A stretch of 64,000 nt of DNA from Occallatibacter gabretensis (GTDB lineage: Bacteria; Acidobacteriota; Terriglobia; Terriglobales; Acidobacteriaceae), in the NCBI RefSeq assembly GCF_001449115.1, contig NZ_LAIJ01000010.1, positions 620,001-684,000 of the forward strand, given 5' to 3'. The notes beneath the pieces are model-generated. The model was not told where the DNA came from, did no database searches, and saw only the letters and a list, made by a program, of their open reading frames with translations. This document shows, one piece after another, positions 12,824 through 50,500 of the stretch (position 1 is the stretch's first letter; every line of letters begins with the position of its first letter). A program made the position numbers and the translations under genes.

Positions 12824-15800
12824 ATGGAACATCAGAAAAGCGATAGTCAAGGAATGCGCGGCCGTCGGATGTCGGGAGCCGATTGGAAGACATTCTTGCA
12901 TCCGCATTCTTTGGCTCAAATAATTTGGAGGCGTGCAGGCCGTTGGGTAGCGCTTCGCCCCGCTGGAAGAGGTTCAGGTCTCCCGCTCTTTGGCATGGAA
13001 TTTATCGTAATCGCGGTCTCCTTGCTTTGGACAGCGACGAACTTGTATGCCGAGAGGTGGCATGCTTCAACCTTGGGATTGCCGGCACGAGGACAAGCAC
13101 AGCCGCTTGAAGACATGGGCCACATGAGCTGGACACGGCGGGACGGGGCTCCGAGCGATATCTCGGCACTGACGCAAACCCAAGACGGATATCTGTGGAT
13201 CGGGTCAAGCGCCGGGCTCTTTCGCTTCGATGGTCTGCAATTCCAGTCCTACCCCTTCACTTCCGCGGATCCACGGCTGCCTGCCTCCGCCGTAGCGGCG
13301 CTCGCCACGGACCGCGTCGGCGGGTTGTGGATCGGCTACCGAATGGGCGGGATCAGCTATCTCCGCGACGGCAAGAAGGTGGACTACGACGAACACAACG
13401 GCCTGGTAAGCGAATCGACGGAACAGTTGCTCTGTCGCGAAGACGGCTCAGTTTGGGCAACCGCGGACGGACGGCTGATGCGCTTTACCGGAACCGGCTG
13501 GGAGAACTACTCGATCAAACATGGTCTGGTGTCTGAAGGGCTCTATTCTCTGTTCTTCGATCGCGCTGGAAACCTCTGGACTGCCGACAAGGGGCATGTC
13601 TACGAACTGAAGAAAGGGGAAGACAAGTTTGTTCCAGTAGCTGTTTCGGCAAAGGTAGTGAATCAGTTTGGACAGTTGCCGAACGGAGACATCTGGATAA
13701 GTGACGCCTGGAACAAGATCCGGCCTCTGCTCGACGACGAGCACGTGAACACGGTTCGCATCCCCGGCGTGCCGGTCATGATCGTGGACAAGGCCGGAAG
13801 CATCTGGCTGGCGAACGATTTCGGCGGGATTACGCGCATCAAGGAGCCGGGGGCCGCCTCGAGTGAGACAGAACACTACGCGCAGGCGAATGGACTGACA
13901 GACGGGCAAACGCGAACGATCCTGCAAGATCGTCAAGGCGCCATCTGGGTTGGCACTGCAAGGGGCCTGGATCGATTCCGTCCTTCGCCCGTGGTGCCGT
14001 TTCACGGGGTTCCACTCGAATACTATCCAGCGTTGGCGGCAGGCGCCAGCGGCGGCATCTGGCTCCACGATATGGATAAGCCATTGATGCGTCTGCGCGA
14101 CGGAAAATTGTCGTTTGTGAGCGAAGGCCACGGGAGCAGCTCTCTCTTTGAGGACAGCGACGGATCTGTCTGGATGCTGGACCAGATTACGCGCAGCTTC
14201 TACCGCTATTCGGAATCGGGAGGTGCACCGCTGCGGATACCCGCCCCGGTTGAAGGGATGGCTGGCGAGACGTGGTGCCTGGGAACGGACCGGCAAGGCG
14301 CCTTGCTTGCCTGTTTTGAAGGCCATGGTTTGTGGCGTTACTCGGGCAAGTGGGAACATGTAGACGCGCCCGGTATGCCGCGCGAAGCACCGCTTTCGCT
14401 GATGAAAGGATCCAGGGGCCGGATTTGGCTGGGATACGCGCGAAATGAAATTGTGCTTGATGATCCAGGCGGGTACCGCACATTCGGACGCGAACAGGGC
14501 CTGGAGGTGAATAGCGTTTTCACTTTCTACGAGACCAGTAACTTGGTCTTCGCGGGTGGCTCCGACGGTTTGGCCTACTTCGATGGCATGCGCTTTCACA
14601 CATTGCAGCTTCGCACTCCCGGCTTGCTGCGGGGCATTTCAGGCATCGTAAAAGACCGGTTTGGCGACCTCTGGCTGAATGCCGGGTCTGGCGTCGTCCG
14701 TCTGCCTGAGGTGGAGTGGAGCAAGGCCGTTCAGCAGCCGAAGTATGCGATGGATTATCAGCTGCTGAATGAGCAGGACGGTCTGATCGGTGCGCCGACT
14801 CAGAGTAAACCCACCCCGTCGGCAATTGTCGACAAGAGCGGTCTTCTCTGGTTTGCAACTTCCGGCCGTCTGGTCTCAATCGATCCTGCGATGGCAAGCC
14901 GGGGGTTCTCGAAGCCGAGCGTACAACTGCAGTCCGTGGCCGTGAACGGCGTCCTCCGCCATGCCACGGAAGGTGAACCGATCTCTCTCGGTTCGATCCC
15001 GCTGAAGACCCTGGAGTTCGACTACATCGGTGTCGATCTTAATTCTCCTGATCGGGTAGCCTATCAATATATGCTTGAGGGCCAGGACCATGAGTGGCAG
15101 GACGTTGGTAGTCGTAGACAGGCCTTTTATACGAATCTCCCGCCGGGTACGTATCATTTTCGGGTAAGGGCGGCGAGCGGCACGGGGCCATGGGCAGAGT
15201 TGCCGGCGGCGATGAAGCTCACAGTCAATGCTCCGTTTTATCGGACAATCTGGTTCTACCTGCTAATTATGCTGCCGGTTTTTGGCCTCATTTGGCTGAT
15301 CTATCGAATGCGCGTGCAACACATCACGGCCAAAATGCGAGCGCGTCTTGAAGCACGAGCTCAGGAACGCATCCGCATTGCGAGAGATTTACACGATACG
15401 CTGCTTCAAGGAATCCAAGGGTTGATACTCCGCTTTCACTACGCCACAGAGCGGTTGACGGCTGAGGAACCGGCACGGGCGATGCTTCGCGATGCCTTGG
15501 TTCGCGCTGACCGGGTGATCAGCGAGGGCCGCGAGAAAGTCAGAGAGTTACGCGCGGAGGCTGCTCTGCCTGGCGATCTTGAAAAGAATCTCCGCAGGGC
15601 CGCGGAAGCGCTTCAAGTCGACGGTGGCGCCCCGGTCAAGTTAACTGTGAAAGGCCAACCGAGAACGCTGCGGCCAGCGGTTCAGCACGAGCTTTACTCG
15701 ATTGGAAGGGAGGCTCTCACGAATTCGATACGGCACGCGCAGGCCACCGAGATTGTTTTGGAACTGAACTACGATGTGAATCAATTGCGTGTTTGCTGCC

Positions 15801-16150
15801 GCGATAATGGTTGCGGTGTTGGAACCGAAGTGGGGCGTTCAGGATTCAGGCGTGGACACTGGGGAATTCCGGGTATGCGTGAGCGGGCTCGAGATCTGGG
15901 AGCCGAATTCGAATTCGCGAGCTCGGCTGAAATTGGCACTCGAATCGACGTCTGCCTTGAAGCGCGACGAGCTTATGCTCGAAGAGAGAGCGGTTTCCCG
16001 TGGAAAAACCAATCATCGCGATGGCTGACGGCCATGCGAGAGTTCCTGCCGGGTCGGTACGCATTTGCTGATGAAGATCTTGCAGATATTTCCCTCAAGG
16101 ACGACTCTCTAGAGGGTCCGGACTTGCCGGGAATTGGCGATCTCGAGTAG
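12824..16150 (+). CDS. Propeller-type sensor histidine kinase (Reg_prop, Y_Y_Y, HisKA_3, HATPase)
   Basis: A 1108-residue membrane-bound sensor kinase. A signal/anchor segment (FIVIAVSLLWTATNLY, about residues 60-75) is followed by repeated two-component propeller blades (DGYLWIGSSAGLFRFDG, GGLWIGYRMGG, GAIWVGTARGLDRF) forming two periplasmic beta-propellers, then a Y_Y_Y domain (YQYMLEGQDHEWQDV) and one transmembrane helix (IWFYLLIMLPVFGLIWLIY). The cytoplasmic kinase has the HisKA_3 phospho-acceptor in IARDLHDTLLQG (His857) and HATPase motifs NSIRHA, DNGCGVG and GIPGMRERA. The C-terminal 60 residues after the ATPase are unlike the family. No response regulator follows; NarL-type regulators at 23.7 and 46.7 kb are possible partners. 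Such sensors in related bacteria often read oligosaccharides. Confidence 0.88.
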   Translation: MEHQKSDSQGMRGRRMSGADWKTFLHPHSLAQIIWRRAGRWVALRPAGRGSGLPLFGMEFIVIAVSLLWTATNLYAERWHASTLGLPARGQAQPLEDMGHMSWTRRDGAPSDISALTQTQDGYLWIGSSAGLFRFDGLQFQSYPFTSADPRLPASAVAALATDRVGGLWIGYRMGGISYLRDGKKVDYDEHNGLVSESTEQLLCREDGSVWATADGRLMRFTGTGWENYSIKHGLVSEGLYSLFFDRAGNLWTADKGHVYELKKGEDKFVPVAVSAKVVNQFGQLPNGDIWISDAWNKIRPLLDDEHVNTVRIPGVPVMIVDKAGSIWLANDFGGITRIKEPGAASSETEHYAQANGLTDGQTRTILQDRQGAIWVGTARGLDRFRPSPVVPFHGVPLEYYPALAAGASGGIWLHDMDKPLMRLRDGKLSFVSEGHGSSSLFEDSDGSVWMLDQITRSFYRYSESGGAPLRIPAPVEGMAGETWCLGTDRQGALLACFEGHGLWRYSGKWEHVDAPGMPREAPLSLMKGSRGRIWLGYARNEIVLDDPGGYRTFGREQGLEVNSVFTFYETSNLVFAGGSDGLAYFDGMRFHTLQLRTPGLLRGISGIVKDRFGDLWLNAGSGVVRLPEVEWSKAVQQPKYAMDYQLLNEQDGLIGAPTQSKPTPSAIVDKSGLLWFATSGRLVSIDPAMASRGFSKPSVQLQSVAVNGVLRHATEGEPISLGSIPLKTLEFDYIGVDLNSPDRVAYQYMLEGQDHEWQDVGSRRQAFYTNLPPGTYHFRVRAASGTGPWAELPAAMKLTVNAPFYRTIWFYLLIMLPVFGLIWLIYRMRVQHITAKMRARLEARAQERIRIARDLHDTLLQGIQGLILRFHYATERLTAEEPARAMLRDALVRADRVISEGREKVRELRAEAALPGDLEKNLRRAAEALQVDGGAPVKLTVKGQPRTLRPAVQHELYSIGREALTNSIRHAQATEIVLELNYDVNQLRVCCRDNGCGVGTEVGRSGFRRGHWGIPGMRERARDLGAEFEFASSAEIGTRIDVCLEARRAYARRESGFPWKNQSSRWLTAMREFLPGRYAFADEDLADISLKDDSLEGPDLPGIGDLE

Positions 16151-37728: not shown

Positions 37729-38640
37729 CTACGGAGCTACTGAGTGAATCTCCGCGATGTATCCGCCGGGGAACTGCACGATTGCTGATATACGGTTCTC
37801 AATAGGTGTAGAGGGGACGAGCAGTTTAGCTCCGAGCGATGTCGCCTTCTTCAAGGTTGAGTCGAGGTCCGCAACTTCGTATCCGGTTGTCTCACTGCCA
37901 TGAGGAAAAGGCAACCGGCGGTCCGTCACGAAGATTGTCATCTTTCCGAAGTTCGACGCGACGCGGAGTCGCCGGAAAGTAATCTCCGGCAAGCCTATTT
38001 CGGCCCCCGGAGCAGCCGTTTCATCGGACACCACTCGTCCACCTGAGAATGCGAGAAAACTGCGCATGAATTTCTCGACATCATCCGGAGAGACATACAC
38101 GCGATTCTCCGGCACAGTGACAAATGGAGCATAGGAAGGCTTAGTGGTGTGCCAATAGATCTGAGTCATAACGCCCCCCGGCCATTGAATCACGGCATCG
38201 AGTCCGATGGGGTCGGGAAAGGGTGTCACAACAACAGCCGCTCCTGTGGCTTTGGCCTTCTCGATTGCTGCATTCATGTCAGTGACCAGATACCCTGTTC
38301 GCTCAGAGCCAAAGGGAGTGGGAATGGGAGTTCTGAACCCGAATGCCGACACGGTTCCTACGGGTGTCTGCAGCAGTTGAGAGCTTGTCAGACTTGGCGT
38401 TGGAGTCACTGTAGTGACTACCTGCTTGGTGCTTGTTCCGCCAAATGTACCGAGGAAGCTGGCGACAAATGCGTCAACCTTGGCTGGCGCCACGTACACG
38501 TGTGTCGTGTCATATTGAGGCGCTACTGCGATGGTGGACGAAGCCGTAACCGTTGCCGCCTGCGTGAACGCGATCGATGGAAGGCTCGTAACGCTTAAAA
38601 CCATTGTGGCTATTGTGAGGATGGATGCGGTACGACGCAT
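37729..38640 (-). CDS. Exported two-module VOC/glyoxalase protein
   Basis: A 303-residue protein with a signal peptide (LTIATMVLSVTSLPSIAFTQ) and two tandem VOC domains: THVYVAPAKVDAFVASFLGT to SYAPFVT, and NRVYVSPDDVEKFMRSFLAF to the C-terminus. Each has a VTD-type strand (YLVTDMNAAIEKAKATGAAV; YEVADLDSTLKKATSLGAKL) and a PFPDPIG or STPIEN loop. GGAGG lies 9 bases before the ATG. Secretion is unusual for VOC enzymes; binding of a toxic small molecule or a periplasmic lyase are possibilities. Confidence 0.8.
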   Translation of the reverse strand: MRRTASILTIATMVLSVTSLPSIAFTQAATVTASSTIAVAPQYDTTHVYVAPAKVDAFVASFLGTFGGTSTKQVVTTVTPTPSLTSSQLLQTPVGTVSAFGFRTPIPTPFGSERTGYLVTDMNAAIEKAKATGAAVVVTPFPDPIGLDAVIQWPGGVMTQIYWHTTKPSYAPFVTVPENRVYVSPDDVEKFMRSFLAFSGGRVVSDETAAPGAEIGLPEITFRRLRVASNFGKMTIFVTDRRLPFPHGSETTGYEVADLDSTLKKATSLGAKLLVPSTPIENRISAIVQFPGGYIAEIHSVAP

Positions 38641-38951: not shown

Positions 38952-39500
38952 ATGAGCGCACGATTGACGAGACATGGAGTCGGTGGCCGCGTGGCAAGTC
39001 ATGGAGCACTTATTGGTTTCTTGCTCCTTGGATGTGCAACGATAGACAGCGGGGCGAATCAAGGTGGTTTAAAGCGGAGGAACAGCATGCAGAAAGAACC
39101 AACTCCATTAGTGACGAGTGAGGTTCGATTGGTTGATGCGGCTGGCAAAACGCGGATGCTTCTCTCCATTCAATCAGGTTTGCCGATCATGCAATTGCTG
39201 AACGAAGACGGGACGCCGGGCTTATCTGCATCACTCGATGCCGCTGGGCATGGGTCGCTGAAGCTTCACAACCCGGTGGCGCATGGTCCGGATGCGGCGA
39301 TCGAAATTGATGAAAAGGGAGCTCATGTCAAGTTCGATCGCTCCAGTGGCTCTTCGGCTTATCTGTTCTTAAATAATGCGGGCGAGTCGGGAGTGGTTTT
39401 GATTGATAATCATGGCAAGCGCCGCGTCAACATACTTGTGAAAGAGGATGGAAGCTCAGCTATCGAGCGGTTAGACGATCTGGGGAAGACGCTTCCTTGA
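38952..39500 (+). CDS. Hypothetical lipoprotein (182 aa)
   Basis: The family is not recognised. ATG 38952 follows GGAGG. The signal has a lipobox LLLGC (Cys28) after HGALIGFLLL, so the mature protein should be acylated. The mature part repeats an alternating pattern of short strands with Gly/Asp turns (LLSIQSGLPIMQLLNEDG, then SASLDAAGHGSLKLHN, then AIEIDEKGAHVKFDRSSG, then VVLIDNHGKRRVNILVKEDG), a right-handed beta-helix-like rhythm seen in other acidobacterial surface proteins. It points away from the gene run on the minus strand. Confidence 0.65.
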   Translation: MSARLTRHGVGGRVASHGALIGFLLLGCATIDSGANQGGLKRRNSMQKEPTPLVTSEVRLVDAAGKTRMLLSIQSGLPIMQLLNEDGTPGLSASLDAAGHGSLKLHNPVAHGPDAAIEIDEKGAHVKFDRSSGSSAYLFLNNAGESGVVLIDNHGKRRVNILVKEDGSSAIERLDDLGKTLP

Positions 39501-39513
39501 CATCGAAGAGCAT

Positions 39514-40158
39514 TCAGGAAAGTCCATCCTCAATCAGGCGACGTGCTGACTCAATCTCCTCGCGGAGAATTGTATGGGGACGGCCTTGATAACGGTCCGC
39601 CTTCACGGATGCACCCATTTCTACGAAGACTTCTTGAGTCGCCTGGACGCGCTCCCATGGAACATGCGGATCGGGGTCACCGGAACTGAGTAGGATCGGC
39701 ATGCGGTCGAGATTGCCGGCATGGTGCAGTTCTGAACCCATCGGGCCGATGAGACCACCGGTAAATGCGACCAACGCCGCGTAACGTGCTGGATGCCTGG
39801 CAACAAACTCCGATGCCAGGCAAGCACCTTGTGAAAAGCCCACGATCCCGATCCGTTGAACTCCGATTCCCGCTGACGTTATCTTTGCTATGCATGCGCC
39901 AACTTTGGCTATCGCAGAGCTCAGCCAAGGTTCATTCATTGCGATGGACGCAAGAAATGAATTTGGGTACCAGGTGTGCTGCGCCGCCTGGGGAGCAAGG
40001 TAGGCGGTGGACTCGTTGCCCAACTCTTCGCTCAAGCTGAGAATGTCTTCCGCAGAGCCGCCGCGACCGCGCAGCAGAATTAGCGCAGAGCGTGCTTGTG
40101 AGAGCGCGACTCCGGCTATAAGGATTGGCTCATTACCGTGCGGATCATCTCCCGTCAT
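39514..40158 (-). CDS. Dienelactone hydrolase/phospholipase-carboxylesterase-type alpha/beta hydrolase
   Basis: A 214-residue esterase of the YpfH/carboxylesterase 2 group. Its start ATG 40158 overlaps the previous gene's end by 14 bp. ALILLRGRGGSAEDILSLSE is the oxyanion loop (RGRGG), the nucleophile elbow is IGIVGFSQGACLASEF, and the acid and His are in SSGDPDPHVPW and RPHTILREEIESA. Coupling with a ring-cleaving dioxygenase suggests it hydrolyses the lactone or ester coming from ring cleavage. Confidence 0.85.
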   Translation of the reverse strand: MTGDDPHGNEPILIAGVALSQARSALILLRGRGGSAEDILSLSEELGNESTAYLAPQAAQHTWYPNSFLASIAMNEPWLSSAIAKVGACIAKITSAGIGVQRIGIVGFSQGACLASEFVARHPARYAALVAFTGGLIGPMGSELHHAGNLDRMPILLSSGDPDPHVPWERVQATQEVFVEMGASVKADRYQGRPHTILREEIESARRLIEDGLS

Positions 40159-41125
40159 CGATAGACCTCTGATAGTGGAGCGAGATGGTGGGAAGCACAT
40201 TTTCAATCGCGCCACGCTCAGATTCGAGCCAAGGCGGAAGCTTGAGCGATTCTCCGAGTGATTCAAGCGGTTCATCGAAACTGAAGCCCGGCGGGTCTGT
40301 TGCTATCTCGAAGAGCACACCGCCTGGTTCGCGAAAGTAGATGGAATGAAAGTACGTGCGGTCAAGAACCGGGGTTACGTTCAAGGGAAACCGCCTGAGT
40401 TCTTCCCGCCAGTATCGTTGCGCTGCATCGTCATTGGCCCGGAAGGCGATGTGGTGTACGCTCCCGGAACCCATGCGGCCGTGCATCAGCTGAGTCTGAA
40501 CCAGCACATCGACGTGACGGCCGAAGGCATTTCCATCAGCGCTGAATCGATATCTGTTTCCTTCTTCACCGGCTCTGCGAAATCCCATTCTCTCCAAAAC
40601 TTCGGCTGTCGATTCGAATCCGGCCTGGCATAGGGTGACTCCAAAGAAGCCGCGGATGGCATTCTCAGATTGCACATCGCTATTGCGAGGAGTGCGACTC
40701 GGATTGGCGTCTTCATGTGCGATCAGTTCAATGCGCATGCCATCCGGGTCGGCAAAACCAAGCACCGAGTTCCCAAATCTAGTTGCCAGACGCTGCGCAT
40801 GCACACCGGCAATCAATAGCCGCGACTCCCAGAACGCGAGGGAATCCGTAGGAACGCTGAAGGCCGTCGCCGAAGTCTCGCCCACTCCGAGTGATCCCCG
40901 CGTGGCGTGCGGCCAAGGGAAGAAAGTGAGGATGGTTCCCGGTGAACCGAGATCATCCCCAAAATAAAAATGGTATGTACCCGGATCGTCGAAGTTGACA
41001 GTTCTCTTAACGAAGCGAAGTCCGAGCAGTTTGGTGTAGAAGTCCAGATTTCGTTGCGGATTTGACGCGATTGCGGTCACGTGATGAAGGCCCACAATCG
41101 GCGGGGGATTTGTTGTTTCAGGCAT
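40145..41125 (-). CDS. VOC-type ring-cleaving (extradiol-like) dioxygenase
   Basis: A 326-residue two-domain protein of the MhqO/LinE-like group. ATG 41125 follows GGAGG; the frame to TTG 41137 is unnecessary. The first VOC module starts VGLHHVTAIASNPQRNLDFY and GTYHFYFGDDLGSPGTILTF, and the second has SVHHIAFRANDDAAQRYWRE and IYFREPGGVLFEIATDPPGF, giving the 2-His-1-Glu metal set (HH, H and E). Such enzymes open (chloro)hydroquinones or other hydroxylated rings. It is followed by an esterase gene and preceded by an outer-membrane channel gene (34 bp). Confidence 0.86.
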   Translation of the reverse strand: MPETTNPPPIVGLHHVTAIASNPQRNLDFYTKLLGLRFVKRTVNFDDPGTYHFYFGDDLGSPGTILTFFPWPHATRGSLGVGETSATAFSVPTDSLAFWESRLLIAGVHAQRLATRFGNSVLGFADPDGMRIELIAHEDANPSRTPRNSDVQSENAIRGFFGVTLCQAGFESTAEVLERMGFRRAGEEGNRYRFSADGNAFGRHVDVLVQTQLMHGRMGSGSVHHIAFRANDDAAQRYWREELRRFPLNVTPVLDRTYFHSIYFREPGGVLFEIATDPPGFSFDEPLESLGESLKLPPWLESERGAIENVLPTISLHYQRSIDDGR

Positions 41126-41159
41126 CGCTTCCTCCAAGCCTTGGTTGTTCCATGTGCGG

Positions 41160-42581
41160 TTAAAACTTGTAGCCGGCCCACAACGCCCAGTAATTGAGAT
41201 TACGGCTCGGCTGTGTTTGTTTCAAGAACCCGCCTGGGTAGAAAACTCCGTAGTCAGCTTGAAACCATATATGACGGTCAGCTTGCCATCGGACCTCAGT
41301 GCCCGGCCTATCTCCGACATAGCGGGCTCTGCTATTGCCTGCCGCACGGATTAGCGTTCCAGGCACCGAATAAACTCCGTCAAGAACATTTTCCCGCCAC
41401 TGGAAGAGCCAGTCCGTGGAAACGGTCACGGATCGTGGTAATTGCGTCTGGACACGCGGATGAATGTCAACGAAGTTCAAAGGCCCTGGTCCCGTTGTTG
41501 CCAGAACGCCGAAGTAGTTGCCCATGGGAAAAAGTGGGTTGAATGTGCCTAACGAATTTGTCTGGGGATTATCCCCGCTTGAGATATCGGCTTTCGCACT
41601 GAACCGCGGCTTAAGACGCATGTTAGGGAGGCTATAGCCTGTGTCGCTGGCCACGGTCCATGCTTTGATGTTCGCAGAACCGAAGGTGCCAAACTGCCAC
41701 AAGGCTTCGTCGTCAAAGTCCCATCCGGCTTTTTCCGCGGACTGGGCGCGGTAGATCCTAGATCCGATCGTATGGCGAAGTTCGCGCGCTGTACCTCTCT
41801 CGAATGTCGCTCGTTTTCGATCGAGGCCAAGATAATACGCGTCCATCGAAATCGATTTCGTCAGCGCTCTTGTCGAGTAGACGCCCCAGAACCCAACCGC
41901 GTGGTTGGGGGCGTTGTCGAAGAAACCAGGGTTGTCGAGGTCGGGCCGCATGGCGAACCCATCAATCTTCCACGCATTGAGGTTCGACTTAATCTTGAAG
42001 CCGTCGAAACTGAGGCGGACGTTCGGGCCCTCTCGAACATCGATCAATCGACCCGAGCCATACTCCATCTCCTGTCTGCCGGTCCGGAGCTTAACCCAGT
42101 TGGTGCTCCCAGCGGTGCCTACTTCGAGGAAGCCAGCTTGAAAATCGAGCTTCTTTTCATCAATGGGCCGCGGACCACCGTCGCGGAACGAATTCAAGCC
42201 GCTCTTCAGCTCGACGAAGGAGCTTATGTGCTCCCCATAATGAAAGTCGAAGGAGAGCATGTATCTTTCGTTCAGATATCCATTGGTGTACGGTTCCTGG
42301 CCCCAATTATCATTCCCAATCTGCTCCCATACCTCGCGGGCTTCGCCGGCAATCGTGAGATACGAAGAGGCTGCATTGCGATGGAATGGGATGTACTTGA
42401 TCTGATCCCAGCGGTCTTGCTTCAGTTCAGGATTACGAAGAAAAGTCCAGTCCTCGTCTTCGCGGAGTAGTTGGTATTTGCGGCTGACTTCTGGGACCTG
42501 GTCGGTGCTGACGGATTGAGCGAGAATCCGTGAAGAATCGAGGAGAGCAAAACCTACCAACAAGCAAGCTATTCTTCCCAT
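41160..42581 (-). CDS. Outer-membrane alginate-export-type beta-barrel channel
   Basis: A 473-residue barrel starting at ATG 42581, whose signal peptide is MGRIACLLVGFALLDSSRI, cleavage near LAQS; the frame upstream overlaps the aquaporin gene. It has the Alginate_exp features LSFDFHYGEHISSFVELKSG, VKLRTGRQEMEYGSGRLIDV, and the final strand NLNYWALWAGYKF with a terminal Phe, as Omp85 substrates need. The family often serves as a porin for aromatic or uronate substrates, fitting an uptake role in front of the dioxygenase. No SD sequence is obvious. Confidence 0.85.
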   Translation of the reverse strand: MGRIACLLVGFALLDSSRILAQSVSTDQVPEVSRKYQLLREDEDWTFLRNPELKQDRWDQIKYIPFHRNAASSYLTIAGEAREVWEQIGNDNWGQEPYTNGYLNERYMLSFDFHYGEHISSFVELKSGLNSFRDGGPRPIDEKKLDFQAGFLEVGTAGSTNWVKLRTGRQEMEYGSGRLIDVREGPNVRLSFDGFKIKSNLNAWKIDGFAMRPDLDNPGFFDNAPNHAVGFWGVYSTRALTKSISMDAYYLGLDRKRATFERGTARELRHTIGSRIYRAQSAEKAGWDFDDEALWQFGTFGSANIKAWTVASDTGYSLPNMRLKPRFSAKADISSGDNPQTNSLGTFNPLFPMGNYFGVLATTGPGPLNFVDIHPRVQTQLPRSVTVSTDWLFQWRENVLDGVYSVPGTLIRAAGNSRARYVGDRPGTEVRWQADRHIWFQADYGVFYPGGFLKQTQPSRNLNYWALWAGYKF

Positions 42582-42663
42582 GTGTATGATGTCTGCGCCC
42601 CTTCTTGAGTTTCCGTTCGATATACCGAGAAATTCTATCCTCACGGCGCTCTCCAATATCCAG

Positions 42664-43455
42664 TCAGCCGATCGTTCCACACAACCGATGGGTGAGTACC
42701 TGGCGACGTTTCTGAATCCATAGCCGCAACCATGCCGCAAACGCCGCTCCCACCATGGGTGCCAGCAAATAGACCCAAAGGAAGTGTGTTTGTCCCGAGG
42801 CGATTGCCGGTCCGAATTGACGAGCGGGATTGAGACTGCCGCCGCTGGCTGTTCCAAGAACTGCAATTCCTGTTCCGACTAGCGCGCCGATAATCCAAGG
42901 AACGAATTTCGCAAGCCGATGAACGGAGAGGCAGATTCCAACCAAAAAGACGATCACTGCCATGCCGGCAGATTCGGTTACAAAGACCTGTATGGCCGAC
43001 CATCCTGTTGCCGGTTGAAGTACGGCAAACGCCACAGGCGGATTGGAAACAATCGATCCCCATACTCCTCGCGCAGCGATTACGCCGAGTACAGAGCCGA
43101 GCAACTGGGCGACGGAGTAGGGAATGACGGCTCTTCCCGGAAACACCCCGAACCTCCACATCGCGAAAGAAATGGCAGGATTGGTATGCGCGCCGGAAAT
43201 CCTGCCTGGAGGGCTGAGAATGAGTCCTGCAAGAAGCAATGCGACCGCGGTGCCGACGATCCACAGCTCAGCATGAATATCCGGGATGGCGTGAGAGACG
43301 AGCGATGGTCCTATCACCCACCTCACAATGGTCGTCACTCCAAAGAGCAAAACGAAAGTGAGGATCAACTCATACGTACTGTCGCGGGTCAACCGGATTA
43401 ACGTCTGACGATCGATTCCCTTCGGCAATGCTTGAGACCGATCCAATGTTCCCAT
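42664..43455 (-). CDS. Aquaporin/MIP-family channel
   Basis: A 263-residue inner-membrane channel. ATG 43455 is chosen because the frame above it overlaps the amidohydrolase gene. Both NPA boxes are intact: SGAHTNPAISFA and GGSLNPARQFGP. Transmembrane helices appear as YELILTFVLLFGVTTIVRWV, LWIVGTAVALLLAGLIL, VIPYSVAQLLGSVLGVIAAR, FVTESAGMAVIVFLVGICLS and WIIGALVGTGIAVLGTA. It could carry glycerol, water or a small neutral metabolite; in this operon a neutral substrate of the amidohydrolase is conceivable. Confidence 0.88.
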   Translation of the reverse strand: MGTLDRSQALPKGIDRQTLIRLTRDSTYELILTFVLLFGVTTIVRWVIGPSLVSHAIPDIHAELWIVGTAVALLLAGLILSPPGRISGAHTNPAISFAMWRFGVFPGRAVIPYSVAQLLGSVLGVIAARGVWGSIVSNPPVAFAVLQPATGWSAIQVFVTESAGMAVIVFLVGICLSVHRLAKFVPWIIGALVGTGIAVLGTASGGSLNPARQFGPAIASGQTHFLWVYLLAPMVGAAFAAWLRLWIQKRRQVLTHRLCGTIG

Positions 43456-43489
43456 CCTGTTGACCCTAGTTAGACCGTTCGACTTGATG

Positions 43490-45307
43490 TTAGAAGGCAA
43501 AGCAGTCGCAGCCCAGGCCCCACAACGATTCTCCAAGACGCACGGACTTTGGCAGAGATGCCGAAGCATGGTGACCAGAACATCCGTGATGCAGGAGCGC
43601 GGCAACAGCTGACGCGGGCGTGTGATAGCCACCATAGTGCACCGTTGGCGCCCAGTCCAGTGCAGCGGGCAATGGGGGCGGAGCCAAATCACTGAAGCCC
43701 TGAGCCGCATAAACGACTTCACCGCCAACTACGGTAAGGACAGATTGCAGCCCTTTGATTTCCTCTTCAGCTACAGCGAAGTAATCCGACGACAGCACTG
43801 CGAAGTCGGCAAGTTGACCAGGCGCCAGAGATCCCTTCACATCTTCTTCAGTCGAAAACCAACTGCTGCCATGCGTGTAGAGGTGAAGTGCTTCTTCGCG
43901 GGTCATGCGATTTGCATCGTCGTAGAGGCGCAGTCCGCCCACTGTGCGACCGGATACCAGCCAATAGAGCGACACATAGGGGTTGAAGCTGGCTACGCGG
44001 GTAGCATCCGTCCCGGCTCCAACATTTGCGCCCATCTGCAGCATCCGCCGGATGGGTGGCGTCCTTTTGGCCGCTTCCGCGCCATAGCGATGGACAAAGT
44101 ATTCTCCCTGGAACGCCATGCGGTGCTGCACCGCTATGCCTCCCCCGAGAGCTACAGTGCGCTCAATGTTCCGATCGGAGATCGTTTCGGCATGATCGAA
44201 AAACCAATGCAGACCGCTGAGTGGAATGTCGCGGTTGACCTTCTCGAATACATTTAAAAACCTCTCGATAGACTCGTTGTATGTGGCATGTAGGCGGAAT
44301 GGCCAGCGTTTTTCGGCGAGCAGGCGGACCACTTCCTCGAGTTTGGTTTCGAGGACCGCGTCGAGATCGGGTCGGGGCTCCAGAAAGTCCTCAAAGTCGG
44401 CAGCGGAAAAGACAAGCATCTCGCCGGCGCCATTGAGCCGCAAAGTGTGGTCGCCTTGATAGAGCGATGCTGAAGATGTCCACTTGCTGAAGTCTTCGAT
44501 CTCATGATTTGGGCGCTGGGTGAATAGGTTGTAAGCAATACGCAGCGTCATCTGCCCGCGCTTATGCAACTCCTCGACAACCGTATAGTCGTCTGGGTAA
44601 TTCTGGAATCCTCCGCCTGCGTCAATCGCGCTGGTGATGCCAAGCCGGTTCAGTTCACGCATGAAGTGGCGGGTAGAGATCAACTGATCCTCATAGCTGA
44701 GCAGAGGTCCTTTGGCAAGCGTTGAATAGAGGATTCCGGCGTTCGGCCTGGCGATCAACATGCCGGTTGGAACGCCGCGCTTGTCGCGCTGGATTTCTCC
44801 GCCTAATGGATCCGGCGTGTCTTTGGTGTAGCCCACCGCACGCAATGCAGCCGCATTCAACATCGCCCGGTCATACAAGTGCAGGACGAAAACAGGAGTA
44901 TCGGGTGCGGCTTCGTTGATCTCCGCGAGAGTTGGCATACGCCGCTCCGCAAACTGAAATTCCGTCCAGCCGCCGACGACACGGACCCACTGCGGAGCTG
45001 GTGTTCGAGCTGCCTGTTCCTTCAGCATCCTCATGGCATCTGCATGGGAGGGAACGCCATCCCAGCGAAGCTCCAAATTGTAATGAAGGCCGCCGCGGAT
45101 CACATGCAAATGAGAATCGTTGAGGCCGGGAATCACTGTGTGGCCACCGAGATCGACGACTTCCGTACTTGAATCACGACCGGGAAGCAAGTCTGAAGAA
45201 GCGCCAATAGCAACGATCTTTCCATCGGCGACCGTCATCGCTTCGGCGAAGTATGGGATGGAATTCGTCGCAATCTTTCCGTTGAAGTAAATCGTCTTCT
45301 GGGCCAA
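43490..45307 (-). CDS. YtcJ-like metal-dependent amidohydrolase
   Basis: A 605-residue cytoplasmic amidohydrolase of the YtcJ family. TTG 45307 is taken as the start because GGAGG lies 5 bases upstream and it opens MAQKTIYFNGKIATNSI. The metal-site motifs are IPGLNDSHLHVIRGGL, LHLYDRAM, and further down LHWFFDHAETISDR, GGIAVQHRMAF and GAGTDATRVASFNPYVSLYW. The C-terminal tail (HHGCSGHHASASLPKSVRLG) is His-rich. The enzyme probably opens a cyclic amide or aromatic amide side chain. It lies 34 bp before the aquaporin gene. Confidence 0.85.
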   Translation of the reverse strand: MAQKTIYFNGKIATNSIPYFAEAMTVADGKIVAIGASSDLLPGRDSSTEVVDLGGHTVIPGLNDSHLHVIRGGLHYNLELRWDGVPSHADAMRMLKEQAARTPAPQWVRVVGGWTEFQFAERRMPTLAEINEAAPDTPVFVLHLYDRAMLNAAALRAVGYTKDTPDPLGGEIQRDKRGVPTGMLIARPNAGILYSTLAKGPLLSYEDQLISTRHFMRELNRLGITSAIDAGGGFQNYPDDYTVVEELHKRGQMTLRIAYNLFTQRPNHEIEDFSKWTSSASLYQGDHTLRLNGAGEMLVFSAADFEDFLEPRPDLDAVLETKLEEVVRLLAEKRWPFRLHATYNESIERFLNVFEKVNRDIPLSGLHWFFDHAETISDRNIERTVALGGGIAVQHRMAFQGEYFVHRYGAEAAKRTPPIRRMLQMGANVGAGTDATRVASFNPYVSLYWLVSGRTVGGLRLYDDANRMTREEALHLYTHGSSWFSTEEDVKGSLAPGQLADFAVLSSDYFAVAEEEIKGLQSVLTVVGGEVVYAAQGFSDLAPPPLPAALDWAPTVHYGGYHTPASAVAALLHHGCSGHHASASLPKSVRLGESLWGLGCDCFAF

Positions 45308-45349
45308 AGGATCCTCCGGGCAATTCAGGACTTCTATTAGAAGAGCGGT

Positions 45350-45373
45350 CAGGGAAGGCTTCCACCTTCCCTG
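45350..45373 (-). terminator. Intergenic hairpin between isochorismatase-type and amidohydrolase genes
   Basis: CAGGGAAGG and CCTTCCCTG form a perfect 9-bp stem with a 6-nt loop in the 72-bp spacer. No T-tract follows on the minus strand, so an attenuator or mRNA-processing hairpin is as likely as a terminator. Confidence 0.35.
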
Positions 45374-45379
45374 TCTTGC

Positions 45380-46075
45380 TTACTTGTGCGCCGCCAGTTC
45401 AAGAGGCGGAGTCCATGTGGGGAAGTGCGTCTGCGCCGTACCATGCACCATGGTGTATGCGTACTCCACGCCTACTCCATACGCGCCAGCGTGATTTTTC
45501 ACGATTTCAACGACGCCGTCATAGGTCTCCTTCAAGGCCCAATCTCTTTGCCATTCGAGCATCACCTGAATCCAGGTCACCGGCTTGGCTCCGGCTTGCT
45601 CTACGCGGCGCATGGCTGCGTTGTGGGTTCTCAGGTCTAGATCGCCGCTCAGATCTTCAACGACGTATACCGCGTATCCGTCGGAAATGGCCTGAACTGT
45701 CGGGTAAGTAACACAAGCTTGAGTCCAGAGGCCGGCGAGAACAATCTTCTTGCGCCCAGTGGCCTTGATGGCGGCCACAAAGTTCGCATCGTCCCAGGCG
45801 TTCATTGTGCTGCGCTCGATCGGCGTTTGATCGGGGTATTGAGCCTTCAGTTGGGGCCAGATATACCCGCTGAGCGACTTGCTCTCAACGGTGCTGAGAA
45901 TGAGCGGAACGTCGAATAGCTTGGCGGCTTTGGAAAAGCCAACAACATTGTTGATGAGCGTCTGGCGGTCGATGCTGGTGACACCGAACAGCATTTGCGG
46001 TTGATGATCGATGAGAGCCACGACGCAGTTGTCTGGCGTGAGCAGTCCTTTTTCACTTCGTTTTGCGAGTGACAT
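45380..46075 (-). CDS. Isochorismatase-fold cysteine hydrolase
   Basis: A 231-residue cysteine hydrolase. The triad is readable: Asp23 in ALIDHQPQM, Lys at about 109-110 in ATGRKKIVLAGL, and the nucleophile Cys121 in WTQACVTYP. A C-terminal extension MVHGTAQTHFPTWTPPLELA is unusual. GAGAGG lies just before the ATG. It heads the minus-strand operon to 39514. A similar enzyme is encoded at 47437-48066; such hydrolases cleave amides or vinyl ethers, for example nicotinamide, ureidoacrylate or isochorismate. Confidence 0.87.
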   Translation of the reverse strand: MSLAKRSEKGLLTPDNCVVALIDHQPQMLFGVTSIDRQTLINNVVGFSKAAKLFDVPLILSTVESKSLSGYIWPQLKAQYPDQTPIERSTMNAWDDANFVAAIKATGRKKIVLAGLWTQACVTYPTVQAISDGYAVYVVEDLSGDLDLRTHNAAMRRVEQAGAKPVTWIQVMLEWQRDWALKETYDGVVEIVKNHAGAYGVGVEYAYTMVHGTAQTHFPTWTPPLELAAHK

Positions 46076-46656: not shown

Positions 46657-47286
46657 ATGGCTGTTTCGGACCGAATCCGAATTCTGTGCGCTGACGATCA
46701 TCCGTTGGTGCGGGACGGCATTGCATTTGCAATCCAACAGCACGCTGACATGGAACTGGTAGCCGAGGCGAACAACGGCGTTGATGCGGTGCTTGCGTTT
46801 CGGCAGTACAGGCCCGACGTGACCCTGATGGACTTGCGCATGCCGCAAATGAACGGAATTGACGCGACGATGGCTATTCGAGGCGAGTTCCCGAATGCAC
46901 GCATCGTTATCCTCACTACATATTCTGGAGATATCCAGGCCTCTCGCGCATTAAAGGTAGGAGCGGTGGGCTACCTGCTGAAGGGCATGTTCCGAACGGA
47001 GTTGATCAGCACCATCCGGCGCGTCCATTCAGGCCAGCGGCATATTCCCGCAGAGATTGCTTCGGAGATAGCAGAGCACTTCGTTGCCGATGCTCTTTCT
47101 GAGCGAGAGATCGAGGTGCTGCGTTGCGTTGCGGACGGTTGCGCTAACAAGGTGGTCGCGGACAGGCTCCTTATCACTGAAGATACGGTAAAAGGGCATA
47201 TGAAGAATATCCTTGCGAAACTTCAGGCCAACGACCGAACCCATGCGGTGATGATTGCGATGAAACGCGGCTTCCTCGACGATTGA
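46657..47286 (+). CDS. NarL/FixJ-type response regulator, second copy
   Basis: A 209-residue response regulator started at ATG 46657 behind GGGAGG; the frame extends upstream to 46537 without an RBS. Receiver: ILCADDHPLVRDG, phospho-Asp in TLMDLRMPQMNG, Thr in ILTTYSGDI and Lys in YLLKGMFRTEL. DNA-binding: LSEREIEVLRCVADGCANKV, then TEDTVKGHMKNILAKLQAND. It closely resembles 23670-24323, and its placement divergent from the catabolic operon suggests it may govern it. No kinase is adjacent. Confidence 0.88.
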   Translation: MAVSDRIRILCADDHPLVRDGIAFAIQQHADMELVAEANNGVDAVLAFRQYRPDVTLMDLRMPQMNGIDATMAIRGEFPNARIVILTTYSGDIQASRALKVGAVGYLLKGMFRTELISTIRRVHSGQRHIPAEIASEIAEHFVADALSEREIEVLRCVADGCANKVVADRLLITEDTVKGHMKNILAKLQANDRTHAVMIAMKRGFLDD

Positions 47287-47436
47287 TGGTCGAGGCGAAG
47301 ATTGATTCCGGTTGCGATGGATTTCTACTGAAATGTGGGGCATGATTGCTACTCGATCGGGGGGTGACAGTGCCGAGTTGCGCCGCTAAAGTTGTCTCAG
47401 CCGGCAGCAGTCCACCAAACGGCCCGGAGGAATGTC

Positions 47437-48066
47437 ATGACAGGATCTGAAACTCTTCTTAAGCCTGAGCAATGTGCTCTGCTGCTCGTGGACTTCCAGG
47501 CCGGGCTGGCGTTCGGCGTAGAGTCTTTCGCCAGGCAGACACTGCTCAACAACGCCGTAGCATTGGCACGCACCGCAATCGCATTCAAGGTGCCGGTCGT
47601 CGCCTCTACATCCGCGAGCCGGGTTTACAGTGGCCCAATGCTCCCGGCGTTGCAAGAGGCACTGCCGTCCGTCACTCCAGTGGAGCGACGGAATATGAAT
47701 GTTTGGGAAGATGACGTGGCACATCGCGCCGTGATGGACACAGGGCGCAAGAGGCTGATTGTTGCTGGATTGTTGACGGAAGCCTGTGTTTCCTTCCCGG
47801 TGCTCTCCGCCCTAAATGACGGATTTGAAGTCTTCGTGGTTGCCGATGCATGCGGCGGGCTGAGCCCGGCGGGACATGACCTGGCTCTGCGTCGGATGGA
47901 ATCGGCAGGCGCACAGTTGACCAGCTGGATTCAAGTTCTGCTCGAATTCCAGCGCGACTGGACGCGGCACGAAACCTATGAGGATGCGCGGAGTATCGTG
48001 GTCGCAAACGGCGGAGGCTACGGGATGGGCTTGGCTTATGCGCGTGAGATGATCCATCCCGCCTGA
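47437..48066 (+). CDS. Isochorismatase-fold cysteine hydrolase, second copy
   Basis: A 209-residue relative of 45380-46075 on the other strand, with Asp19 in LLLVDFQAGL, Lys105 in DTGRKRLIVAGL and Cys117 in TEACVSFPV. It lacks the C-terminal extension of the other copy. GGAGG is 6 bases before the ATG. Some 150 bp after the NarL-type regulator, it may share the transcript. The substrate is unknown. Confidence 0.87.
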   Translation: MTGSETLLKPEQCALLLVDFQAGLAFGVESFARQTLLNNAVALARTAIAFKVPVVASTSASRVYSGPMLPALQEALPSVTPVERRNMNVWEDDVAHRAVMDTGRKRLIVAGLLTEACVSFPVLSALNDGFEVFVVADACGGLSPAGHDLALRRMESAGAQLTSWIQVLLEFQRDWTRHETYEDARSIVVANGGGYGMGLAYAREMIHPA

Positions 48067-48241: not shown

Positions 48242-48757
48242 ATGGCAAATACTTCTGAACTTATTGGGCGGCGCAAGGCTGGATTGACGACGCCTTCCGA
48301 CATCGCTCCGGAAGCAGTCAGGGACATCACGGGAGCATTGAACGTACTGCTCGCCGACGTGTTCACGCTTTATCTCAAGATCAAGAATTTCCATTGGCAC
48401 ATGAGCAGTCCGCATTTCCGCGACTATCATCTGCTTCTCGACGATCAAGGCGATCAGCTCTTCGCAATGACCGACGAAATCGCCGAACGGGCTCGCAAGA
48501 TCGGCGGTACCACCGTCCGTTCCATTGGACACATCGCTCGCTTGCGGCGCATCCAGGATAATGATGCGGAGTTTGTCACTCCGGCCGATATGTTGAGCGA
48601 ACTGCGCGAAGACGAAAAGGCGCTTCTATTGAGCCATCGCGCCGTGCATGTGCTTTGCGATGACGCGGGAGATGTGGCCACGGCGAGCCTTCTCGAGAAC
48701 TGGATCGATCAGAGCCAGCGACGCATTTGGTTCCTGTTCGAAACAACCCGTAGCTAA
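48242..48757 (+). CDS. dps: Dps/ferritin-like DNA-protection protein
   Basis: A 171-residue Dps, which stores iron as ferric oxide and shields DNA from hydroxyl radicals. The ferroxidase ligands at the subunit interface are visible as LYLKIKNFHWHMSSPHFRDY, then HLLLDDQGDQLFAMTDEIAE (His, Asp and Glu). AAGGAG precedes the ATG by 9 bases. The N-terminal tail is basic enough (GRRKAG) to touch DNA. It is placed between a regulator/hydrolase pair and an exporter, a stress context. Confidence 0.92.
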   Translation: MANTSELIGRRKAGLTTPSDIAPEAVRDITGALNVLLADVFTLYLKIKNFHWHMSSPHFRDYHLLLDDQGDQLFAMTDEIAERARKIGGTTVRSIGHIARLRRIQDNDAEFVTPADMLSELREDEKALLLSHRAVHVLCDDAGDVATASLLENWIDQSQRRIWFLFETTRS

Positions 48758-48836: not shown

Positions 48837-50153
48837 ATGACCAAGGTCTCTCAATCAGACGCGGTTAACTCTCCAGGTCCGTGGGGCCCGCTTCGTAATT
48901 CAACGTTCCGAGGCCTGCTTCTATCCAACCTGGTCTCGGACATTGGTACGTTCATGCAGAGCGTCGGCGCAGCGTGGCTGATGACCTCTCTGACGAATAA
49001 TCCTCTCTATATTGCACTCATTCAAACCGCAACTGCCTTACCCTTTTTTCTGCTCGCTCTGCCGGCGGGTTCCATAGGCGACATCTTCGATCGCCGAAAG
49101 TTGATTCTTTGCACCGAAGTCTGGATGCTCGCGGTCGCCGTCGCGCTCACGGTTGCAACAGTCTTCGGAGGGATGACTCCATGGCTACTGCTCCTGCTTA
49201 CGCTCGGATTGTCAATTGGAGATGCTTTCGAATCTCCTTCCTGGCGGGCAATATTTCCCGAGTTGGTCGATAAAGAGGAGCTGCCTGCAGCGCTGGTCTT
49301 GAATGGAATTGAGTTCAACCTCGCTCGCGCGTTGGGTCCGGGGATAGGCGGCTTCATCGTGGCGGCCCTAGGAGTGGGTGCTGCATTTGCCTTCAACGCC
49401 TTCTCGTTTCTGGGAGTGATTGCCGTCGTTGCGCGGTGGAAGAGGCCTACCCGAAAGAGCACACTGCCGTTAGAGACCTTCCGGGGCGGGACCGCTGCGG
49501 CGGTCCGCTACGTCCGCTATTCACCAGGGGTTCGTACGCTTCTGCTTCGGTCGGCAATTCTCATCTTTTTCACCAGTTCCTTCTGGGCGCTCTTGCCGAC
49601 GGCAGTGAAGTCCATAAGCACGAACCCAATTACATACGGCTTCCTGCTGGGGTTCTTCGGACTGAGCGCAGTCGCGGGAGCAATGGTTCTGCAACGGACT
49701 CGTTCAAAGATTTCCTCCGAGGCATTGTTATCTTTCGCCACGGTTGCATTCGCCATAGTCATTTTGAGCATGGCCCTGTTGCGCTCGCCTGCCATCCTCT
49801 GCCTGCTGATGCTTTTGGGCGGCGCGTCGTGGACATCGGTCATGTCCCTGTTCAACATCATGGTGCAGGAACTTGCCCCGGATTGGATTCGCGCTAGGGT
49901 GCTTGCCGTCTATCTTTTTGTTTTTCAGGGAAGCGTTGCATTTGGGAGCACCCTTTGGGGATATGTTGCGTTGCACCGGGGTGTCCATGAAGCTCTGGTG
50001 TTCGCCGCCATTGGAACAGGAGCTTGTGTTTTGCTGCAGCTTCTATTCAGGCTGCCGGCTATTCCAGCCGATCTCAGTTCATGGAATCATTGGGTCAAAC
50101 CAACCATACTTGAAGCACCAAACCCCTTCCTGGGACCCGTGCTGGCACGGTGA
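48837..50153 (+). CDS. MFS exporter (MFS_3/EntS-like), lacking its usual C-terminal domain
   Basis: A 438-residue transporter with about 12 transmembrane helices. LRNSTFRGLLLSNLVSDIGT, then MQSVGAAWLMTSLTNNPLYI, then PAGSIGDIFDRRKLIL and ARALGPGIGGFIVAALGVGA are MFS_3 marks. Many homologues carry a C-terminal antibiotic-monooxygenase-like domain on the same chain; here the frame ends at TGA 50151-50153 and that domain begins in another frame at 50150. No SD sequence is obvious. A drug or siderophore is the likely substrate. Confidence 0.88.
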   Translation: MTKVSQSDAVNSPGPWGPLRNSTFRGLLLSNLVSDIGTFMQSVGAAWLMTSLTNNPLYIALIQTATALPFFLLALPAGSIGDIFDRRKLILCTEVWMLAVAVALTVATVFGGMTPWLLLLLTLGLSIGDAFESPSWRAIFPELVDKEELPAALVLNGIEFNLARALGPGIGGFIVAALGVGAAFAFNAFSFLGVIAVVARWKRPTRKSTLPLETFRGGTAAAVRYVRYSPGVRTLLLRSAILIFFTSSFWALLPTAVKSISTNPITYGFLLGFFGLSAVAGAMVLQRTRSKISSEALLSFATVAFAIVILSMALLRSPAILCLLMLLGGASWTSVMSLFNIMVQELAPDWIRARVLAVYLFVFQGSVAFGSTLWGYVALHRGVHEALVFAAIGTGACVLLQLLFRLPAIPADLSSWNHWVKPTILEAPNPFLGPVLAR

Positions 50154-50500
50154 AGTACACGATCGATCCATCGAAAGCTGCGGAGTTTCTACATCTGATC
50201 CACAAATACCAGAGGGTTCGCCGCCGCGATGGCGCAACAAGTTGGGGCATCTTCGTCGATACCAAAGCTCCGAACATCTACCTGGAGTCCTTCAAAGTTG
50301 ATTCATGGGCTGAACATGAGCGTCAGCATGATCGTTTCACAGTGGCAGATCGTGACATTGAAGAGCGAGTGCTGGGGTATGCTATCAAGCCTGTCGAAGT
50401 CAAACATTTTATCTATGCTCGGGAAAGGGCTTCCCGGAGTCCTCTGCAAGCCCGGCAGTTTCCTCCTTCGATCAATGAGGTGACAAGCCCCTTCGTATAA
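50150..50500 (+). CDS. ABM-like C-terminal domain of the MFS exporter, separate overlapping frame
   Basis: A 116-residue dimeric alpha-beta barrel-type domain. VKYTIDPSKAAEFLHLIHKY, then RRRDGATSWGIFVDTKAPNI, then ESFKVDSWAEHERQHDRFTV match the domain that closes MFS_3 proteins. It starts with GTG 50150, sharing GTGA with the MFS stop, so it may be translated by coupling, or it may be the second half of a frameshifted fusion (one -1 shift restores a continuous reading). The function of the domain in the exporter is not known. Confidence 0.72.
   Translation: MKYTIDPSKAAEFLHLIHKYQRVRRRDGATSWGIFVDTKAPNIYLESFKVDSWAEHERQHDRFTVADRDIEERVLGYAIKPVEVKHFIYARERASRSPLQARQFPPSINEVTSPFV

Follow-up and report, generated by a model that had tools for sequence, protein, structure and literature searches.

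Do the six adjacent genes found on the minus strand of a 64,000-nucleotide stretch of Occallatibacter gabretensis DNA (contig NZ_LAIJ01000010.1, hereafter the window) belong together, and on what kind of compound might their products act? The initial annotation, made from the sequence alone, had proposed an operon for the uptake and stepwise cleavage of an amide-bearing or cyclic aromatic compound. The computational analysis reported here indicates that the genes very probably form a real linked unit, which is part of a larger cluster found in shuffled form in unrelated plant- and soil-associated bacteria. The gene families, their linkage, their recurrence across phyla and their patchy distribution are direct observations. 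With moderate confidence, and judging from sequence comparisons, the cluster may be read as an inducible, horizontally spread module for reactive aromatics, most likely hydroquinones, quinones and related plant phenols. The six genes are the following:

45380..46075, minus strand: gene 1, YcaC-like cysteine hydrolase (isochorismatase fold); Pfam Isochorismatase, E 5.9e-25
43490..45307, minus strand: gene 2, Amidohydro_3 amidohydrolase with a Cys/His-rich C-terminal tail; TTG start; Pfam Amidohydro_3, E 2.5e-128
42664..43455, minus strand: gene 3, aquaporin of the MIP family, AqpM-like; Pfam MIP, E 7.3e-30
41160..42581, minus strand: gene 4, Alginate_exp outer-membrane barrel; Pfam Alginate_exp, 228 bits against a cut-off of 25.2
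40145..41125, minus strand: gene 5, predicted MhqO-type extradiol (hydroquinone) dioxygenase, VOC fold; Glyoxalase/VOC, with a match to 3oaj
39514..40158, minus strand: gene 6, MhqD-like phospholipase/carboxylesterase; Abhydrolase_2, E 8.4e-17

All six open reading frames (ORFs) were found between positions 39514 and 46075, with zero internal stops. Genes 4 and 6, for which the Pfam scan intervals were 41160-42638 and 39514-40155, were given starts at ATG 42581 and ATG 40158, respectively. The spacers measure, in order, 72 bp (YcaC-amidohydrolase), 34 bp (amidohydrolase-aquaporin), 82 bp (aquaporin-Alginate_exp) and 34 bp (Alginate_exp-VOC), and the VOC and esterase ORFs overlap by 14 bp, so that the description of six families on one strand with short gaps or an overlap was borne out by both ORFs and Pfam matches. 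The divergent NarL-type regulator placed at the head of the unit was likewise recovered, with its ATG at 46657 on the plus strand, 581 bp from gene 1. Scans for promoters and terminators gave nothing above shuffled sequence (3 versus a mean of 6.5 and 12 versus 12.6, respectively). The six genes most likely constitute one putative operon within a larger gene cluster. The interval first assigned to the unit does hold linked genes but is too narrow, as the linked set extends from about 37.7 to 50.5 kb and also comprises a second YcaC-like gene, a Dps gene, an MFS_3 transporter gene and a gene for an apparently exported VOC-fold protein, for which we use the working name dup38.

The linkage is visible within the genome itself. 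The 5.35-Mb assembly contains two close amidohydrolase copies, the second being 77% identical and located on contig C2, and five weak matches elsewhere (27-39% identity). Three YcaC, two Alginate_exp and two dup38 homologues were detected (E<=0.001), all of them within 6 kb of a close amidohydrolase copy, the second Alginate_exp homologue adjoining the second copy. A rough estimate of chance (p to the 7th power) counts duplicated copies as if independent and was set aside. Related loci in other genomes were then compared with controls. The 81 family loci consisted of L005 and L021-L100, the latter being the best 80 of at least 589 relatives confirmed on genome contigs (best-segment identity 64-74%), and the controls were 16 distant amidohydrolases of <45% identity with flanks of about 1.5 kb, shorter on one side at contig ends in L008, L015 and L020. 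A YcaC-like gene was present within 1.5 kb of the amidohydrolase in 68 of the 81 family loci versus 0 of the 16 controls. By these sequence criteria the YcaC-like hydrolase and the distinctive amidohydrolase are a conserved core. This count, together with the confinement of YcaC, Alginate_exp and dup38 to the two amidohydrolase loci of the genome, upholds the proposal of a linked gene set.

When ORFs at the 80 loci were clustered, the occurrences near (<=2.5 kb) and far from the amidohydrolase were 53/0 for YcaC, 35/0 for ABM-TM, 25/1 for MFS_3, 23/0 for DoxX and 22/0 for XapX/DUF1427; the YcaC count of 53/80 comes from ORF clusters and that of 68/81 from tblastn, two methods that differ. Within 6 kb, an MFS_3 relative was found in 27/81 family loci, Alginate_exp and dup38 in 6/81 each, and the aquaporin in 1/81 (L023). 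In L023, which belongs to Edaphobacter lichenicola X5P2, the genes for YcaC, amidohydrolase, aquaporin, dup38 and barrel follow one another. The low counts of aquaporin and Alginate_exp, and those of dioxygenase and esterase given below, mean that the six-gene set is rare and its core widely shared. Of the conservation looked for in the co-occurrence search, therefore, the YcaC-amidohydrolase pair stood, and the exact six-gene set and order did not. Some of the stretches are likely to represent the same DNA (L001 in L102, L002/L103, L003/L021/L104, L005/L105 and L046/L110).

Several loci join the window genes to the wider cluster. In L106, from another genus of the same family, XapX, a YcaC corresponding to the second window copy (76% identical), dioxygenase, esterase, MFS_3, the first YcaC, dup38, amidohydrolase and Alginate_exp lie within 13 kb, together with a receiver-GerE regulator, a DoxX-looking protein without family match and a NarL regulator whose neighbour is a propeller sensor kinase; matches to the aquaporin and Dps are absent from this locus. 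L105 contains amidohydrolase, YcaC, a small gene, dioxygenase, esterase, an alpha/beta hydrolase and dup38, and it is in L105 and L106, two other genomes of the phylum, that both dioxygenase and esterase accompany the amidohydrolase. On Rhizobiaceae plasmids the MhqO-type dioxygenase is located upstream of YcaC, XapX and amidohydrolase, and four such loci (L112, L116, L133 and L141) have the dioxygenase without that esterase. The annotated order on Rhizobium plasmid pSK04 (L141) is LysR, VOC, hydrolase, XapX, amidohydrolase, hydrolase, DoxX, glyoxalase, YoaK and alpha/beta hydrolase, which is resolved here as a row of dioxygenase, YcaC, XapX, amidohydrolase, YcaC, DoxX and dup38: the VOC protein is MhqO-like (3oaj, E 9.2e-75), the second hydrolase is 68% identical to the second YcaC of the window, and the 'glyoxalase' is dup38 (63%). 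The copies of this second YcaC in L141 and in Rhizobium L133 are 68-69% identical to it. Novosphingobium L115 combines a propeller kinase, NarL, alpha/beta hydrolase, Dps, YcaC, XapX, amidohydrolase, dup38, DoxX, Alginate_exp and YoaK, and both Paraburkholderia L111 and Burkholderia L135 hold YcaC, amidohydrolase, DoxX, dup38 and Alginate_exp. Conversely, when plasmid loci were fetched with dup38 (L133-L141), an amidohydrolase was found within about 9 kb in 7/9, partly inside the stretch in L140 and in pieces in L133.

Three of these plasmid loci show irregularities of their own. The dioxygenase of the Sinorhizobium plasmid (L112, 6616-7525) and the amidohydrolase of the Rhizobium plasmid (L133, 5483-7173) match in pieces, as if frameshifted. 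In the Chimaeribacter plasmid cluster (L139), an IS5-like insertion sequence (9868-10836) adjoins dup38; YcaC and DUF1427 genes are present, and an amidohydrolase match is absent from the fetched stretch.

The amidohydrolase was found at E<=1e-120 in four of 396 genomes of the phylum, that of the window included, one of the copies being only 41% identical. Among 59 nearer relatives, three more genomes of the same genus carry close copies (75-80%), one of which is a fragment. Its relatives span several phyla and are mostly 58-77% identical, and at E<=1e-150 it occurs in 353 of 72,556 plasmid records, including 96 of Rhizobium, 82 of Sinorhizobium, 52 of Pantoea and a plasmid of the Bacillota (Priestia). 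The patchy distribution combined with high identity suggests horizontal transfer, and the cluster thus appears to have spread horizontally. In a tree built by a quick method, the amidohydrolase of the window groups with the other close copy in the genome as well as with two relatives of the same genus, an arrangement compatible with horizontal transfer without being decisive. As 14 of the 41 inner branches of this tree are open, no transfer route is claimed. The amidohydrolase is common on plasmids, yet the annotations examined assign no specific function to it.

The other members of the linked set, and further genes of the window considered with it, are:

37729..38640, minus strand: dup38, apparently exported two-module VOC-fold protein, downstream of the esterase; signal peptide by eye
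38952-39500, convergent: small gene between esterase and dup38, without Pfam family
46657..47286, plus strand: NarL-type response regulator, divergent; Response_reg and GerE
47392..48066, plus strand: second YcaC-like hydrolase; Isochorismatase, E 9.9e-28
48242..48757, plus strand: Dps/ferritin-like protein; Ferritin, E 2.2e-25
48837..50153, plus strand: MFS_3 transporter, main part; MFS_3, E 6.9e-129
50150..50500, plus strand: short ORF, C-terminal part of the MFS_3 model (positions 430-520)
12824..16150, plus strand: propeller sensor histidine kinase; Reg_prop/Y_Y_Y/HisKA_3/HATPase_c

Relatives of the NarL regulator (44-63% identity) are present in the amidohydrolase loci L106, L115, L107, L025 and L077. 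Because L106 and L115 have a propeller kinase adjoining their NarL regulator, the kinase at 12824..16150 may be its partner in the window. A second NarL-type regulator, 69% identical to the one at 46657, was noticed at 23670-24323; this regulator and the kinase, which lie 15-27 kb away from the operon, may belong to one signalling set with it. Relatives of Dps were found in the fetched stretches of L083, L115, L137 and L138, and in that of L134, itself without amidohydrolase. The small convergent gene has a 43% identical relative adjoining YcaC and amidohydrolase in L105. MFS_3 is represented in the window by two overlapping ORFs (48837-50500), by a natural split or a frameshift, and in L106 by a single 539-amino-acid ORF covering model positions 2-523; the short ORF is presumably ABM/YgiN-like. 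Further aromatic-type chemistry is encoded close to the cluster, about 7-12 kb off, where genes of the carboxymuconolactone-decarboxylase family, UbiD type, UbiX type (Flavoprotein) and luciferase-like monooxygenase type are grouped at 27885-32783. Several alpha/beta-hydrolase-looking ORFs were also seen at 20449-22268 and 33264-37466, with a tandem pair at 35913-36611 and 36672-37466; those checked against Pfam were 34282-35262 and 36672-37466. Alpha/beta hydrolases likewise accompany the cluster in other taxa.

The products of the core genes were examined individually. Gene 1 is similar to E. coli YcaC (1yac) over its whole length (E 2.5e-39), and its Asp and Cys blocks align. Both YcaC-like proteins of the window score below the cut-off of the NCBIfam YcaC equivalog NF041461 (158.1 and 157.1 versus 310), and the name is therefore kept at YcaC-like only. 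The amidohydrolase, which we take to be of the YtcJ type, is well above the gathering score of Pfam Amidohydro_3 (430 bits versus 29.7). Residues H66, H68, H340, H372 and D434 are invariant across 32 sequences and presumably act as metal ligands (His/His...His...His...Asp set). The AepA name, an exoenzyme-regulator annotation of amidohydrolases, was not used, no paper with both terms having been found.

From about residue 545 (window 43490-43675) the amidohydrolase carries a tail that ends in GCxC[FW]A[FV] and is conserved in the subfamily across several phyla. Cys and His make up 13.6% of the last 65 residues versus 2.6% elsewhere. A strict motif, G-C-x-C-[FWLYI]-A-[FVIL] with one extra residue permitted, was found at the end of 86 of 98 rows, duplicate loci included; the 12 misses comprise six single-residue variants (by eye), three rows of the same truncated contig and three without tail. 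In Pseudomonadota the tail reads roughly HxCxGxCxVHxHxHD...FWGxxGCSCFAF. It is absent from more distant relatives, namely the second copy of L028, L108 and L109, the last two of which are yet flanked by YcaC-like and Alginate_exp-type genes. The structural model of the amidohydrolase has a predicted local distance difference test (pLDDT) score of 77.1, with residues 559-605 below 50; since the tail is disordered in it, the model is uninformative on the tail. One might guess that the tail binds metal or traps an electrophile. For mutational work on this uncharacterised amidohydrolase subfamily, the tail is a precise target.

With regard to the dioxygenase-esterase pair, gene 5 matches MhqO (3oaj, E 6.6e-87, residues 11-311) and 2,6-dichloro-p-hydroquinone 1,2-dioxygenase (4huz, E 6.1e-48). 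Its blocks glHHvta, vHHiaf and lfEiat align to 3oaj and correspond to the His, His, Glu iron-site motif of such dioxygenases, as stated in the excerpt available of PMC12673573. Gene 5 is hence a clear MhqO-type hydroquinone-dioxygenase relative and a predicted ring cleaver, which sustains, as to enzyme type, the ring-cleaving dioxygenase of the initial annotation. Gene 6 matches 4h0c (E 9.8e-52) and has a GFSQG motif; as it misses the cut-off of the MhqD NCBIfam equivalog NF047577 (36.3 bits versus 325), its name is kept at MhqD-like. In the phylum, dioxygenase loci were found in 14/247 genomes, and the esterase adjoins the dioxygenase in 12 of the 16 loci, that of the window included; within this phylum the pair is an independent unit. 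Quinone-type partners accompany the cluster elsewhere: an NmrA-type oxidoreductase and HxlR regulator in Rahnella (L044), an FMN reductase in Priestia (L114) and a gene annotated 'putative quinol monooxygenase' in Rhizobium (L141). Collectively, MhqO, MhqD-like, ABM, DoxX, NmrA/HxlR, FMN reductase and Dps point to the handling of quinones and electrophiles over amides. The amide-bearing substrate first proposed thus found no confirmation, the nearest solved amidohydrolases being uncharacterised and the partner families fitting quinones and electrophiles instead.

Gene 4 belongs by its Pfam score to the Alginate_exp family, as expected for the outer-membrane channel first predicted, and was not filed as an alginate exporter. 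The start at ATG 42581 gives an apparent signal peptide (by eye). No solved chain, AlgE included, was matched by phmmer at E<=1, a search of sequences and not of folds. For the aquaporin, the nearest solved structure is AqpM (3ne2, E 8.6e-25) and both NPA motifs are present; it misses the NCBIfam aquaporin Z equivalog cut-off (51.7 versus 256) and is assigned to the MIP family only. One weak further match to it lies in the genome, away from the cluster. No Pfam or NCBIfam match was obtained for dup38. Its model (pLDDT 74.9) has a two-module VOC fold, with 3oxh as best structural match (Z 20.0, root-mean-square deviation 3.0 over 222 residues), followed by AbxF (Z about 17) and by numerous extradiol dioxygenases, the highest at Z 16.6, and dup38 is matched in 51 plasmid records at E<=1e-20. 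A link to copper RiPPs (ribosomally synthesised and post-translationally modified peptides; HvfX/bufferin) was considered and dropped, the DoxX protein of L110 scoring 31.5 bits for HvfX against a cut-off of 80.

If the cluster handles reactive aromatics, the following course may be proposed. The sensor kinase and NarL regulator would turn the cluster on, and the Alginate_exp barrel would admit the compound to the periplasm, where the exported dup38 might act on it. Hydrolysis of the compound, or of adducts formed from it, would follow in the cytoplasm through the amidohydrolase and both YcaC-like hydrolases; the MhqO-type dioxygenase would open a hydroquinone ring and the MhqD-like esterase would hydrolyse the product. 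The MFS_3 transporter would export residues and Dps would limit iron-driven oxidative damage, while the aquaporin would be a local add-on passing small neutral molecules. It is possible, and is put forward tentatively, that the cluster is a previously undescribed, widely transmitted module for reactive aromatics. At its centre would stand a new amidohydrolase subfamily, whose tail would bind metal or trap an electrophile, in partnership with a YcaC-like hydrolase; a ring-opening dioxygenase of the MhqO type would be a further partner in some Rhizobiaceae and soil Acidobacteriota.

A number of observations weigh against such a module. In thirteen of the 81 family loci, YcaC was not found within 1.5 kb; of these, L021 and L027 are truncated by the end of a contig, and the YcaC of L028 adjoins a tandem second amidohydrolase. 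Other partners are less specific, with near/far counts of 18/6 for an alpha/beta hydrolase (C4), 2/8 for pirin and 3/2 for dup38, and ordinary chromosomal neighbours reach 9-10 near and 6 far too. As 69 of the 80 loci are from Pseudomonadota, the counts are not independent. Four dup38 stretches (L134, L139, G197 and G142) are without amidohydrolase, and YcaC was found in 6/9 dup38 plasmid loci. The MhqO-type dioxygenase and the esterase occur within 6 kb in 0/81 family loci, the L005 stretch being too short and the longer L105 holding both, and the esterase was not found beside the Rhizobiaceae dioxygenase; ring cleavage is therefore regarded as an accessory step. Finally, the amidohydrolase and YcaC-like proteins, which are the most conserved parts, are without known substrate, and fold searches did not narrow that of the amidohydrolase, the nearest solved structures being uncharacterised Pyrococcus hydrolases.

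Three other explanations were weighed. The genes might serve to use an amide-bearing or cyclic aromatic as food, with uptake by barrel and aquaporin, amide cleavage by the YcaC-like proteins and amidohydrolase, and then ring opening. In favour of this are a barrel family of the outer membrane, hydrolases and a dioxygenase of ring-cleaving type encoded on one strand, the neighbouring UbiD-type, UbiX-type, monooxygenase and decarboxylase-family genes, and the induction of UbiD and mhq genes by a lignin dimer, reported in the excerpt of PMC12673573. However, no downstream ring-cleavage pathway was recognised within the unit, the dioxygenase is missing from most relatives of the cluster and amide specificity has no structural or sequence match, so that we consider catabolism rather unlikely. 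Somewhat more doubtful still is a general stress island, whose genes would share a response to stress, oxidative or of the envelope, with products that work on separate small metabolites outside any common pathway. Dps, DoxX, XapX, pirin, ABM and two-component regulators do stand beside the core in at least one taxon, and the regulators vary by taxon (NarL, LysR, FixJ, AraC), but the tight coupling of YcaC and amidohydrolase and their repeated co-occurrence suggest one shared chemistry.

A chance assembly of common, functionally unlinked genes could be invoked from the facts that the full six-gene order was seen only in the window among the loci examined and that a single family locus has an aquaporin nearby. 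It is very improbable: for three of the families, every homologue found in the genome lies near one of the two close amidohydrolase copies, and the recurrence in L106 and on Rhizobium, Burkholderia and Novosphingobium plasmids already contradicts it for the core. The module for reactive aromatics is the reading preferred. What looks like an ordinary operon proves to be a variant of a cluster that recurs across phyla and to which the papers searched assign no function. If quinones or plant phenols are indeed handled, bacteria living close to plants and in soils rich in humus would share the cluster as a tool; owing to the genome-wide linkage, its partner genes can be tested together.

Among the papers listed by full-text literature searches, none describes the combined cluster, as judged by titles and the beginnings of abstracts, and the excerpts available of PMC9068703 and PMC4201530 hold nothing on it. 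The known systems resemble parts of it. YcaC, a cysteine hydrolase of unknown substrate from E. coli and P. aeruginosa, shares whole-length similarity and the Asp and Cys blocks, whereas the window proteins reach half the curated score and are encoded by two copies in one cluster; E. coli ycaC, whose function is described as unknown, is downregulated in a ycaN deletion according to the excerpt of PMC9068703. The YtcJ-like Pyrococcus hydrolases 3icj and 3igh, uncharacterised, share the fold of the amidohydrolase (Z 35.0 and 36.9 over 444 and 455 residues), at 20-22% identity and with the Cys/His tail outside the aligned range.

The dioxygenase-esterase pair resembles the MhqE-MhqD pair. The MhqR-controlled quinone-detoxification genes mhqED and mhqNOP of S. 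aureus and B. subtilis include adjacent genes for an MhqE/O-type dioxygenase and an MhqD-type phospholipase/carboxylesterase, and S. aureus mhqE-mhqD is induced 35- to 67-fold by methylhydroquinone (PMC6798810, in the portion available). Their regulator is of the MarR type (MhqR), whereas that of the window is of the NarL type, and the window pair closes a putative operon whose other genes are for a YcaC-like protein, the amidohydrolase, the aquaporin and the barrel. According to the excerpt of PMC12673573, lignin degraders carry clusters of MhqO and a C-C hydrolase; mhqPOD of Paenibacillus sp. B2, which responds to the lignin dimer DDVA, and the Agrobacterium/Ochrobactrum pairs share with the window MhqO, an alpha/beta hydrolase and an MFS transporter in the cluster. 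Paenibacillus sp. B2 also induces UbiD, and a UbiD-type gene is present in the window. In that study the recombinant MhqO was inactive, and the five-gene Paenibacillus operon is given as MhqO, MhqD, the azoreductase MhqP, MarR and MFS, without the amidohydrolase or YcaC that characterise the cluster described here.

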